Shown one piece after another: positions 9,352-13,217 of a DNA stretch of 13,237 bases (its first letter is position 1; every line of letters begins with the position of its first letter). The notes under the pieces are model-generated. The model was given only the letters and a program-made list of their open reading frames with translations. It did no database searches and had not been told where the DNA came from. The DNA lies in the NCBI GenBank assembly GCA_030765605.1, contig JAVCCG010000128.1, positions 1 through 13,237 of the forward strand. The letters run 5' to 3'. Source of the DNA: Candidatus Alcyoniella australis. GTDB lineage: Bacteria > Lernaellota > Lernaellaia > JAVCCG01 > Alcyoniellaceae. Made by a program: the position numbers and the translations under genes.

Positions 9352-10323
9352 ATGAAGCTGATCGAGCACGCATTGGACCGGGCCCTAGGCAGTGATGGCT
9401 GCGATCGCGCCACGGCGATCGAGCTGCTGCAACTGCCCGACAGCGCCCTGCCCGAGCTGTTCTCCGCAGCTTCGCAAGTGCGCGACGAGCTGCGCGGCCG
9501 CCGCGTACTTCTCTGCGCGATCGTCAATGCCAAGAGCGGCCGCTGCGGCCAGGACTGCGCGTTCTGCGCCCAGTCCGCGCACCATCTGACACAGATCGAG
9601 CTTTACGACCTGCTCGACATCGAATCGGTGCTCGACGTGGCTCGTGCGGCGCACGGCCAAGGCGCGAGCTGCTTTGGCATCGTCACCTCGGGTCTCGGAC
9701 CGAATTCCGAAGAGCTCGAGCGAATCGCGCTGATGGTCGCCGGCGTAAAGCGCATCGGCTTGGAGCCCTGCGTCAGCCTGGGACTGCTCGACGGTCAACA
9801 ACTGGCGCTGCTGGCCGCGGCGGGCCTGGAGCGCGTACACCACAACCTGGAATGCGCGCAATCTTTCTATCCGCAAATTTGCACCACCCGTAAATGGGCC
9901 GACAACCTGGCCGCGATCCGGGCGGCCCGCGACGCCGGCCTGGCCGTATGCTCGGGCGGGATCTTCGGCATGGGAGAGGATTTTGCGCAACGCGTGGACC
10001 TGGCGTTGGCCCTGCGCCGGACCGGGATCGATCGCGTGCCGCTGAACTTCCTGCATCCGATTCCGGGCACACCGCTGGCCGGATCACAACGCCTGACGTC
10101 CGGCGAGTGCCTGCGGATCGTCGCGGTCTATCGGCTGCTGCTGCCGCACGCGGGATTGCAGATCTGCGGCGGCCGCGAGCACAACCTGGGAGCGCAACAA
10201 TCAGCGCTGTTCAACGCCGGGGCCGACGGGCTGATGATCGGCAACTACCTCACAACCTCCGGCGCGGATCCGCACAGCGACCTGGAGCTGATCGCGTCCG
10301 CCGGACTGGAACCGCTGCGATGA
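9352..10323 (+). CDS. bioB: Biotin synthase BioB
   Basis: 323-residue radical-SAM enzyme that inserts sulfur into dethiobiotin, the last step of biotin synthesis, in the cytoplasm. The radical-SAM [4Fe-4S] motif is C65-GQD-C69-AF-C72. The ligands of the sacrificial [2Fe-2S] cluster are all present: C107 (GASCFG), C140 (EPCVSLG), C200 (AVCSGGI) and the Arg in ICGGREH (R275). HHNLE (163-167) matches the substrate-binding YNHNLD region. NFLHPIPGTPL (232-242) and GLMIGNYLTTSG (293-304) are typical family blocks. Length matches the family. ATG 9352 has no strong ribosome binding site, but it begins a sensible N-terminus. Its stop overlaps the bioF start by four bases, so the two are translationally coupled. 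A BirA-like inverted repeat sits just upstream. bioA and bioD are not nearby. Confidence 0.97.
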   Translation: MKLIEHALDRALGSDGCDRATAIELLQLPDSALPELFSAASQVRDELRGRRVLLCAIVNAKSGRCGQDCAFCAQSAHHLTQIELYDLLDIESVLDVARAAHGQGASCFGIVTSGLGPNSEELERIALMVAGVKRIGLEPCVSLGLLDGQQLALLAAAGLERVHHNLECAQSFYPQICTTRKWADNLAAIRAARDAGLAVCSGGIFGMGEDFAQRVDLALALRRTGIDRVPLNFLHPIPGTPLAGSQRLTSGECLRIVAVYRLLLPHAGLQICGGREHNLGAQQSALFNAGADGLMIGNYLTTSGADPHSDLELIASAGLEPLR

Positions 10324-11504
10324 GCCTTGAGCGCGAGCTGCAACTTGAACTGGAAACCCTCGAGCGCAACGGCCTGCTGCGGCGGCTGACGCAAATCGAT
10401 GAGCGCCGGGGTCCGCGGGTCAGGGTCGAGGGGTGCGAACTGCTGCTGCTGTGCGGCAACGATTACCTGGGTTTGGCAGGCGACCCGCGGCTGGCCCAGG
10501 CTGCGGCGCACGCGGCGCGCGAACACGGCACGGGCAGCGGGTCGAGCAGGCTGATCAGCGGCGATTGCGAGTTGTTGCGCCGACTGGAGCGCGCGGCCGC
10601 CGAGCTGGTCGAGCTGCCCGAGGCGCTGGCTTTTGGTTCGGGGTATCAGGCCAACGTCGGCCTGTTGGGCGCCCTGGCCGGTCCCGAGGACGCGCTGCTC
10701 TCCGACGAGCTGAACCACGCCAGCATCATCGACGGCGCGCGTTTGAGCGCGGCGCGCAAGCTGATCTACCCGCACCTCGACCTGGACGCGTTGGAGCGCG
10801 GACTGATCGAGGCGCGCACGGCGCGGCGGCGGATCGTGGTCAGCGAGACGCTGTTCTCAATGGACGGAGACTCACCCGATCTATCCAGATTGGCCGAGCT
10901 GTGCCAACGGCACGACGCCTGGCTGGTGCTCGACGAGGCCCACGCCCTGGGCGTGCTCGGGCCCCACGGCGCGGGCCTGGCCGCGGAGCATGGTGTGAGC
11001 GGACGCGTGGCCGCGCTGGTGGGCACATTAGGTAAAGCCTTTGGATCGAGTGGTGCGTTCGTCGCCGGATCGCGCGTTCTGCGCGAGTTTCTGATCAACC
11101 GCTGCCGCAGCCTGATCTTCAGCACCGCGCCCAGCCCAACGACAGCCGCGGCCGCAACCATGGGAATCGAGATCGCCTTGGGCATGGACGCCCAACGCGC
11201 CGCGTTGCTGCGTTCCGCCGACGAGCTGCGCCATCGTCTGCGCGAATATGGGTTCGATGCGCCCAGCGGCCAAAGCCCGATCGTGCCGCTGCTGCTGGGG
11301 GATCCGGCCGCGGCCCTGCGCGGTCAGCGTTTGCTGTGGGATCAGGGGGTCTGGGTCCAGGCGATCCGTCCGCCCACTGTTCCGCAGGGCACCAGCCGTT
11401 TGCGCATCAGCCTGCGCGCGGACCTTTGCCCGGCCGACCTGGAACTTGCGGCCCGCGCCTTTGCGCAGCTCGCGGCGCAATCCGTTGAAAGGGTTGGTGG
11501 GTAA
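10320..11504 (+). CDS. bioF: 8-amino-7-oxononanoate synthase BioF
   Basis: 394-residue PLP-dependent alpha-oxoamine synthase that condenses pimeloyl-thioester with L-alanine to give 8-amino-7-oxononanoate, the first committed ring-building step of biotin synthesis. Visible landmarks are CGNDYLGLAGDP (45-56), GTGSGSSRLISGD (70-82), FGSGYQAN (105-112), DELNHASIIDGARLS (129-143) with the PLP-stacking His133, SETLFSMDGD (175-184), DEAHALGVLG (205-214) with Asp205/His208 for PLP, and GTLGKAFGSSG with the Schiff-base Lys239. Length is normal. ATG 10320 overlaps the bioB stop (ATGA). Related alpha-oxoamine synthases (Kbl, HemA, SPT) are less likely because of the bioB coupling. The 3' end faces the propeller gene across the repeat array. 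Confidence 0.95.
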   Translation: MSLERELQLELETLERNGLLRRLTQIDERRGPRVRVEGCELLLLCGNDYLGLAGDPRLAQAAAHAAREHGTGSGSSRLISGDCELLRRLERAAAELVELPEALAFGSGYQANVGLLGALAGPEDALLSDELNHASIIDGARLSAARKLIYPHLDLDALERGLIEARTARRRIVVSETLFSMDGDSPDLSRLAELCQRHDAWLVLDEAHALGVLGPHGAGLAAEHGVSGRVAALVGTLGKAFGSSGAFVAGSRVLREFLINRCRSLIFSTAPSPTTAAAATMGIEIALGMDAQRAALLRSADELRHRLREYGFDAPSGQSPIVPLLLGDPAAALRGQRLLWDQGVWVQAIRPPTVPQGTSRLRISLRADLCPADLELAARAFAQLAAQSVERVGG

Positions 11505-11536
11505 TGTGGTGACAATATTTATCAACCCCCATCTTC

Positions 11537-11861
11537 CGACGCGGAGAAGGTCGTTGCGTTACGACCAGCGAACTACGCGAGTTTTGCTGCACCTCTAAGG
11601 TGCCGATGCGGAGAAGGTCGTTGCGTTACGACCAGCGAACTACGCGAGTTTTGTGGCACCTCAAAGGTGCCGCGAGTTTTGCTGCACCTCTAAGGTGCCG
11701 ACGCGGAGAAGGTCGTTGCGCTACGACCAGCGAACTACGCGAGTTTTGTGGCACCTCAAAGGTGCCGCGAGTTTTGTGGCACCTCTAAGGTGCCGTCGCG
11801 GGGAGGGGCGTTGGGCTACGACCCTGGTTCGCTCGCGTGCCATGCTGCAGCTCTAAGCTGT
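11537..11861 (+). repeat. Modular hairpin repeat array (A/B units)
   Basis: The array resolves without remainder into a 39-base unit A and a 28-base unit B in the order A-B-A-B-B-A-B-B-A*-B*. Boundaries: A 11537-11575, B 11576-11603, A 11604-11642, B 11643-11670, B 11671-11698, A 11699-11737, B 11738-11765, B 11766-11793, A* 11794-11833 (40 bases), B* 11834-11861. A contains the hairpin GGTCGT-N6-ACGACC. B is CGCGAGTTTTG plus two variable bases plus the hairpin GCACCT-CWA-AGGTGC. The last pair is diverged, yet its B* hairpin GCAGCT-CTA-AGCTGT still folds. The array fills the space between the convergent 3' ends of bioF and the propeller gene and stops exactly at the latter's stop codon. It resembles REP/BIME-type extragenic elements in setting and structure. 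No T-run follows the stems, so simple termination is not supported. Confidence 0.92.
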
Positions 11862-12920
11862 CTAGCGGTTGATCGCGCCGGTGAGCAGCCAGTTGAACGA
11901 GACCTCGGGCAGGTCCAGCCGCCGCCAACTGCGCCCTTCGCGCAGATAGGCCACGCCCTGTTTGCGTACCTGGTCCTGTCCCACGGCCAACAGCCGATTG
12001 CCCGGCGCCATGACCACGGCGATCAACTCCACGTTGTCGTCGATAATCGCCGAGCTCCACTTGCCCGCTGAGTATTCGAGCAAAATGCCGCGACGGTTTG
12101 AAAGATCGCTGCCCACGGCCACGGCGGTCGAGCCGTCGTCCGCGGCCCAGACGTCGTAGAGCGTCCATGAGCGCGAGACCTCGGGCAGCAGCTCGGGCTT
12201 AAAGCTCAGGCCCGATTGCCCGTCGTACTTCACGCGCACGATCAGGCCGCGTTCGACCTGACCTGCGCTGCCCACGATTAGCGCCTCGCCGCCAAATACG
12301 GCCAGCCCCTCGAAGCGGAAGCTCTCCTCGATGCGCTGGGCCACGTTCAGCTCGCTCCAGGTGCCGGATTGGCGCACGAACAGCGCGCCCTTGTTGGTCG
12401 AGCGGTTGACTCCCGCGGCGAATGCCAGCTCGTGGGTACCGTCCACGTCAAGCAGCTCGATGCGGCCCATGGTTGCGGGGAAGCTCTCGAAGCTCCACTG
12501 CGCCGCCTGTCCGGCCAAGGCGATCGGCAGTCCGCGCGCCTGGTCGTAGCCCACCAGCAATGCCCGATCCGCGCCGACGAACGTTCCGGCGGTGAGCATC
12601 CAGTTGCCCTCGAGCCGCGGCAGCTTGAGCGGCGTTATCTTGTCGCCGTCCAGTCGCAAGAGCAGGCCCTGGCCGGTCCCGCGATCCGCGCCGAGCAGCA
12701 GCACGCCGCCTCCGCGCGGCTGGGATGCTGCGCCGGTGATGTACCACTTGCCGTGCAGCGGCGGCAGTTCCAGCGCCCGTAGCTCGCCCGGGGCCGACTC
12801 GACGAGCACTACGCCCACGCCCTTGGTGAAATCGAGCCCCGCGGCGACGAACGACGCGTGAGCGCTCAGAGGGCACAGCAGCAGAGCCAATGCGATGGCC
12901 GCTATTATTTTGATTCTCAT
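11862..12920 (-). CDS. Exported protein, probable seven-bladed beta-propeller
   Basis: 352 residues from ATG 12920; the frame opens at 12959, but this Met begins a clean Sec signal peptide (MRIKIIAAIALALLLCPLSA, cleavage likely after AHA at 23). The mature part is built of about seven units of 45-50 residues with the pattern W-hydrophobic strand, short loop, LLVG or AVG, charged loop, RG-hydrophobic strand, then W or L plus a Pro-rich turn. Examples are AVAVGSDLSNRRGILLEY and LLAVGQDQVRKQGVAYLR. The first unit lacks its leading strand, and the last eleven residues (FNWLLTGAINR) supply the missing W-type strand, as in the strand exchange that closes propellers. The family is not recognised and no catalytic motif is seen, so a binding or structural role in the periplasm or outside is the default inference. 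Ribosome binding site weak. The gene is bracketed by copies of the A/B repeat. Confidence 0.8.
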   Translation of the reverse strand: MRIKIIAAIALALLLCPLSAHASFVAAGLDFTKGVGVVLVESAPGELRALELPPLHGKWYITGAASQPRGGGVLLLGADRGTGQGLLLRLDGDKITPLKLPRLEGNWMLTAGTFVGADRALLVGYDQARGLPIALAGQAAQWSFESFPATMGRIELLDVDGTHELAFAAGVNRSTNKGALFVRQSGTWSELNVAQRIEESFRFEGLAVFGGEALIVGSAGQVERGLIVRVKYDGQSGLSFKPELLPEVSRSWTLYDVWAADDGSTAVAVGSDLSNRRGILLEYSAGKWSSAIIDDNVELIAVVMAPGNRLLAVGQDQVRKQGVAYLREGRSWRRLDLPEVSFNWLLTGAINR

Positions 12921-13066
12921 GGGCAAAGTGTATTGCGGTTGCCGACCGTTTTCCAGCAAGACCGCAATGGTTAGCCTGGATTATTCATGAGGTTCGTTTA
13001 CGAGGCGTGCAAGATTCCGCAAGAACGAGGAAGCACCCCAAGCTCAAAGTCCAACACTACTCTGCG

Positions 13067-13119
13067 CGTCGCGGTGCGGTTCTTTGGCCAGCGATCAGGG
13101 TAATACGCGAGTTTTGCAG
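13067..13119 (+). repeat. Diverged, interrupted copy of the A/B repeat
   Basis: A 39-base stretch at 13067-13105 followed by CGCGAGTTTTG at 13106-13116 aligns without gaps to the start of unit A and the first 11 bases of unit B. By eye about 34 of 49 positions agree, and the final 12 bases are identical. The A hairpin is lost. The B hairpin arm expected next is absent: similarity ends at about 13119, where the structured leader of the putative transposase approaches. It has the same orientation as the array at 11537-11861. Confidence 0.6.
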
Positions 13120-13134
13120 CGTATACATGAAAGA

Positions 13135-13217
13135 GGGCTGTCCTCGAGGTCTGTTTGATAAAACAGCCTCAAACGTTAAACGTGCTCATACGACACAAAC
13201 TTTGAGGAGGACAGCCC
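13135..13217 (+). promoter_or_regulatory. Structured leader that covers the transposase ribosome binding site
   Basis: An outer 11-bp stem (13135-13145 with 13207-13217) encloses a second hairpin, GAGG-T-CTGTTT-GATA-AAACAG-CCTC (13146-13170), ten base pairs with one bulged T and a GATA loop. The right arm of the outer stem contains most of the GAGGAGG ribosome binding site (13204-13210). An RNA that includes the left arm would hide that site, as in IS10, IS50 and IS200 protection against read-through. A structured non-coding RNA is the other reading. Confidence 0.55.

Follow-up and report, generated by a model that had tools for sequence, protein, structure and literature searches.

Hairpin repeats behind stop codons in Candidatus Alcyoniella australis: a dispersed, probably REP/BIME-like family

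Introduction

What is an array of small hairpins doing between two convergent genes, and does its fold matter? The question is raised by 325 nucleotides of Candidatus Alcyoniella australis that lie in the stretch of DNA analysed here, 13,237 nucleotides of contig JAVCCG010000128.1 (hereafter the window). A preliminary description had read them as an array of two modules, each with its own hairpin, and had taken a base change in the stem of the most diverged copy as compensatory.

The array and its surroundings

The array occupies most of the gap between a bioF-like gene on the + strand and a gene on the - strand, and consists of ten modules, namely three A modules of 39 nt, one A* of 40 nt and six B modules of 28 nt. 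Genes were called by a simple codon-usage script, which recovers bioF 10320-11504. The features are as follows.

10320..11504, + strand: bioF-like (8-amino-7-oxononanoate synthase-like) gene, convergent neighbour, stop TAA 11502-11504
11512..11536, - strand: apparent remnant of an AT-rich hairpin module (AATAATGTT..AACATTATT type), repeated in the genome sample, likeness judged by eye
11537..11861, - strand: whole array, sense on the - strand, hairpin B first, adjoining a stop codon
11537..11575, - strand: A module, 39 nt, hairpin GGTCGT/ACGACC within CGCG/CGCG
11576..11603, - strand: B module, 28 nt, hairpin GCACC/GGTGC, spacer CAAAACTCGCG
11604..11642, - strand: A module, 39 nt
11643..11670, - strand: B module, 28 nt
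11671..11698, - strand: B module, 28 nt, doubled B
11699..11737, - strand: A module, 39 nt
11738..11765, - strand: B module, 28 nt
11766..11793, - strand: B module, 28 nt, doubled B
11794..11833, - strand: A* module, diverged, 40 nt
11834..11861, - strand: B* module, 28 nt, stem type CAGC/GCTG, abutting TAG 11862-11864 of the - strand gene
11862..12890, - strand: function-unassigned gene whose TAG stop touches B*; longest ORF starts at 12959
13068..13140, - strand: second unit in the window, degenerate and single (R1 match, see below; 37.5 bits, E 4e-8)

The order first described, A-B-A-B-B-A-B-B-A*-B*, is borne out by direct reading and agrees with the periods of 67, 95 and 28 nt returned by Tandem Repeats Finder and a repeat search. 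The modules of 39 and 28 nt are thus as claimed, whereas the division without remainder is not exact, since A* has 40 nt (3 × 39 + 40 + 6 × 28 = 325).

As single strands, both the RNA of the - strand (z = -8.1 against dinucleotide shuffles) and the DNA of the + strand (z = -6.6) fold strongly. Because these folds are far more stable than those of the shuffles and related units recur genome-wide, the array is not a product of chance. The sense strand of the array has no canonical T-tract terminator, and the two matches on the + strand lie within the spread of the shuffles (mean 0.9, sd 1.2). Rfam covariance models give no match to the array in the window, and six large loci elsewhere in the genome are likewise without a match up to E 0.1. 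The sole Rfam match in the window is a SAM riboswitch (RF00162, 1697-1786, - strand, 55.9 bits, E 7e-11), which lies upstream of a - strand ORF at 1221-1715.

A dispersed family

The window array is one locus of a dispersed, genome-wide family of hairpin repeats, and the possibility raised at the outset that such units occur only here is excluded. In the genome (4.29 Mb in 157 contigs, 98% complete), a 135-base probe from the array finds 58 places by BLAST, an exact 28-nt motif has 30 copies and none in a reversed control, and a covariance model built from 97 units, R1, gives at least 156 matches (150 of 3259 candidates scored). Most loci analysed were chosen for carrying arrays; to these was added an array-blind sample of 200 kb (ten 20-kb stretches). 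The genome sample used for repeat searches comes to 430 kb. The array-blind part holds eight matches at E < 0.005, equivalent to some 170 per genome, a figure that may be low because the sampled stretches are interiors of long contigs. Furthermore, repeats lie close to many contig ends (e.g. C4, C5, C36, C111, C116, C132 and C1); the assembly therefore probably breaks at these elements, and the copy number is likely underestimated.

Outside this genome, the exact 28-nt motif is absent from 289 other genomes by pattern search, BLAST finds no match in 40 relatives, and R1 has none in six relatives of the class, the nearest relatives compared being from other families of that class. Nor were array units found in the viral contigs searched. 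A scan of the genome contigs with BioB brought up no close relative, its matches having about 50% identity at most.

Unit anatomy and large composite loci

Read in the sense of the gene whose stop precedes it, a unit runs from hairpin B through a spacer, (C)AAAACTCGCG across units, to hairpin A. Hairpin B is GGCACC-TTNGA-GGTGCC with variants, in which the stem is GGCACC, GGCGGC, GGCAGC or CCCGGC with its complement and the loop has T-N-G at its centre; hairpin A, GGTCGT...ACGACC, is enclosed in CGCG...CGCG. The B module may be repeated alone, and units are combined into direct tandems, into tail-to-tail pairs with 3 nt between the A ends, or into mixtures of both. BIME units alternate in orientation; in the window array all units share one orientation, tail-to-tail pairs being found at other loci. 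The genome holds inverted pairs alongside common tandem arrays without partners. The modular growth proposed earlier by analogy with BIMEs is supported.

Several loci are much larger. AT-rich hairpins (AAAGATCG...CGATCTTT or AATAATGTT...AACATTATT) are joined on, the latter type often closing arrays at other loci, and at several loci long dyads of up to about 250 nt are added, with nested fold-backs as long as 1 kb as the result. L149 3070-4069 extends from 2 nt past one stop to 4 nt before the other stop of a convergent pair, has inverted B units at both ends and folds as one structure (z = -12.8); further large loci reach z-scores of -12.0 (L159), -6.5 (L124) and -5.4 (L150). Large intergenic composite repeats with long dyads are also seen at L150 3847-4827, L136 1754-2664, L138 2502-3193 and L143 2539-3294 besides L149 3070-4069. 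For the long dyads (e.g. GGCTCGCGGGGCATTGGAACGAAATT...AATTTCGTTCCAACACCCCGCGAGCC) there are two or more types of arm, and the two arms of a dyad differ together. No transposase was seen within the larger repeats, whose modules match contiguously. One may ask whether such loci form an element class of their own, composite nested fold-backs up to 1 kb long and built from two-hairpin end units with AT-hairpin and long dyad modules, whose insertion would be specific to stops and which would bring the stop themselves and provide the upstream gene with a large, structured 3' UTR; we regard this as decidedly unlikely.

Repeats of another kind occur inside called genes (L124 4020-4190, L126 977-1095, L148 5931-6056 and L176 9294-9387), with up to 35-58 BLAST matches each in the 430-kb sample. 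These are probably repeated protein domains.

Position and orientation at genes

All but one of 159 units lie outside called genes, the exception being a weak match. Near stop codons, hairpin B leads on the gene's own strand by 36 to 6 (p 2.8e-6), and of 35 sense units near a stop, 26 start no more than 5 nt from it. At L127, L157 and L158 the TGA stop lies within the hairpin loop itself. Genes with a unit at -2 to +5 nt end in TAG in 15 of 24 cases, compared with 69 of 301 other genes (p 9e-5). The bias toward convergent gene ends that had been proposed for checking is borne out in the array-blind sample, where units are present in 3 of 21 convergent gaps, 1 of 114 tandem and 0 of 18 divergent ones (p 0.008, convergent versus rest). 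Truncation of host genes by arrays was considered and rejected, as conserved Pfam domains run near their ends in several array-adjacent genes (e.g. FtsJ 1-180/181, Amidohydro_2 to 286/289).

Such precise placement could mean that the repeats are RNA elements adopted by the host, 3'-UTR hairpins kept for protecting the upstream message, ending it or controlling its translation, with spread only secondary. The leading hairpin close to the stop, the orientation bias and the strong folds speak for this reading, as does the finding, cited in PMC12306157, that E. coli REPs up to 15 nt from a stop can stall ribosomes. However, most convergent pairs carry no array and lie only about 21 nt apart (median), so that arrays are not required for such pairs. 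Given also that no canonical T-tract terminator is seen in the window array in its sense direction, and given the behaviour of wobble pairs described below, we consider it unlikely.

Does the fold matter?

Read on the + strand, the B* stem does change from GCACCT/AGGTGC to GCAGCT/AGCTGT, as had been reported. Whether this reflects selection on a fold was addressed with the 97 units, on which covariation is found: 96.5% of stem-B cells are paired, and two pairs vary on both sides, 5-15 (A-T 58, G-C 35) and 6-14 (G-C 46, C-G 43). Over the whole structure 89.9% of cells are paired; shuffling lowers this to 85.4%, and sliding the partners to 34-47%. Stem A is paired in 82.5% of cells and the outer CGCG pair in 92.8%, with few double changes; these two were named by eye and have weaker support, RNAalifold alone giving stem B only.

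Stem B occurs in a few types, between which its two arms change jointly; they are matched in 87 of 97 units. Three types, AC/GT (41), GG/CC (33) and AG/CT (12), account for 86 of the 97, and on a tree of units built without the stem they are scattered, with at least 32 changes. Alignments of related units overstate independence. Among supported independent contrasts, about 5 of 5 and 6 of 7 have the arms moving jointly, with sign tests at the limit of significance. Since pairing is high and both arms switch in nearly all supported contrasts, stem B complementarity is maintained through coupled two-arm changes. The preliminary reading of B* is upheld to this extent, but the change most likely reflects the swapping-in of a stem type that already existed and not a fresh compensatory mutation, because no more than three or four stem types recur, with both arms switching at once.

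The second part of that reading, that the fold matters as RNA or as single-stranded DNA, can be examined through wobble pairs. In B*, the G-T pair of the + strand is an A.C mismatch on the - strand, which is the transcribed, or sense, side. Counted per locus on the sense strand, G.T and A.C number 4 and 5 in stem B, 25 and 15 in stem A, and 2 and 20 in the outer pair, or 31 versus 40 over all stems. G.T is thus not favoured over A.C, which argues against the host-adopted RNA reading, does not support selection on transcribed RNA and favours a DNA-level or strand-neutral cause; complementarity is maintained, but a case for RNA over single-stranded DNA is not supported.

A cause of this kind need not involve function at all. 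Template switching between arms, or exchange between units, would keep the arms complementary as a matter of mutation bias. The small number of common stem types, their scatter over the unit tree and wobble pairs without sense-strand preference are what such a bias would produce, yet it leaves the position and orientation at stop codons, and the dispersal over many contigs, unexplained. As the whole account of the family it is possible though somewhat unlikely; it is, however, compatible with the REP/BIME-like explanation that we favour.

Mobility and the RAYT gene

We infer that the units may be mobile. The genome contains one Y1 transposase above the Pfam cut-off, a REP-associated tyrosine transposase (RAYT), which carries the HLH motif of HUH enzymes by our reading of its sequence.

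L124 13328-13900, - strand: single RAYT gene, NF047646 (146 bits, E 7e-43)

The nearby RAYT that the preliminary description had thought of looking for is not there: the gene is on another contig and no units lie within 3.7 kb of it. For the palindromes tested in its flanks, the best hairpins among them, the 430-kb sample holds no second copy, and searches for terminal inverted repeats around it gave only weak pairs. In lacking flanking REP-like units it differs from published RAYTs. It may plausibly mobilise the units in trans.

No target-site duplication was detected in 13 two-ended elements (mean longest common string 4.38 versus 4.57 shuffled, p 0.76), as expected of IS200/IS605-like single-strand chemistry. 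The same result bears on whether the repeats are MITEs of a classical DDE transposon, comparable to ERIC, Correia, RUP or YPAL, in which the B units would serve as terminal inverted repeats. This idea would suit full loci, for example L149 3070-4069, which have inverted B units at either end and form a fold-back along their entire length, and ERIC and YPAL are likewise hairpin elements co-transcribed with genes (PMC2229807). Against it stand not only the missing duplications but also the lack of any TA seen at the ends and the wide variation in length and module content, and we judge it very unlikely.

Comparison with known repeats

The REP/BIME-like explanation is best assessed against the repeats it invokes. 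First of all, REPs and BIMEs are short extragenic palindromes of high copy number, present singly, as inverted dimers or in clusters, in genomes with a RAYT; GTAG and CGTC REPs lie 3' of genes with a convergent bias, less than 20 bp from stops, with termini that supply TAG and with alternative complementary stem letters (PMC3733652). All of this resembles the present family, which differs in its two hairpins per 67-nt unit, its mostly direct tandem arrays, its nested fold-backs of up to 1 kb and its RAYT gene without flanking repeat units. Second, the tags that define the described families are not those found here. GTAG REPs carry an unpaired GTAG, or degenerate GYAG, at the stem foot; in our family GTAG directly precedes hairpin B in 3 of 104 units, CTAC follows it in 2, and GYAG, though present in 65 of 97 units, is separated from stem A by several bases. 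CGTC REPs have a CGTC tag and a stem of 8-9 bp starting with A-T pairs, whereas in our family 4 of 104 units have CGTC on the 5' side of hairpin B and the stem begins with G-C. The initial impression that A and B are unlike known REP sequences is supported: the repeat works like a REP/BIME but is outside the described GTAG and CGTC families.

Third, REPINs, which replicate as an inverted doublet, share inverted pairs that fold as one hairpin, ordered tandem clusters and compensatory changes, the last being common in them (PMC3116915), while here the pairs meet at A ends about 3 nt apart, their arms are only partly complementary and none lies beside the RAYT. Finally, elements of other origin overlap in part. 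BOX of pneumococcus, likened here by description and not by sequence, also has a variable count of an inner module, more than 100 loci, strong folds and a single lineage, but makes target duplications and has A-B-C order (PMC3049150). YPAL and ERIC are palindromic insertions whose hairpins are co-transcribed with genes, but their units are 100-200 bp long with target-site duplications, which RUP makes as well (PMC2229807) and which are not seen here.

Conclusions

We thus conclude that the array probably belongs to a REP/BIME-like, lineage-specific, non-autonomous palindromic repeat that sits behind stop codons. Its units would spread in the form of hairpins of single-stranded DNA, possibly with the one RAYT-type HUH transposase of the genome acting in trans, and slippage or unequal exchange would then lengthen the arrays and also mix the few stem types. 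Insertions would be retained mainly directly behind stop codons, where the element may itself supply the stop, as TAG or as TGA in the loop. Located there, the hairpins would belong to the upstream transcript as its 3' UTR and may protect the mRNA end, hinder terminating ribosomes or cut read-through between convergent genes. Such effects have been reported for E. coli REPs.

REP-like repeats are best described in Proteobacteria and other well-sampled groups. The present family comes from an uncultivated, deep-branching lineage and combines a different unit, no tag, a RAYT that is not adjacent and hairpins that start from the stop codon. It would help to part what is essential to a REP, the palindrome and the 3'-end position, from what is incidental, the tag and the adjacent RAYT, and it makes insertion at stop codons testable.
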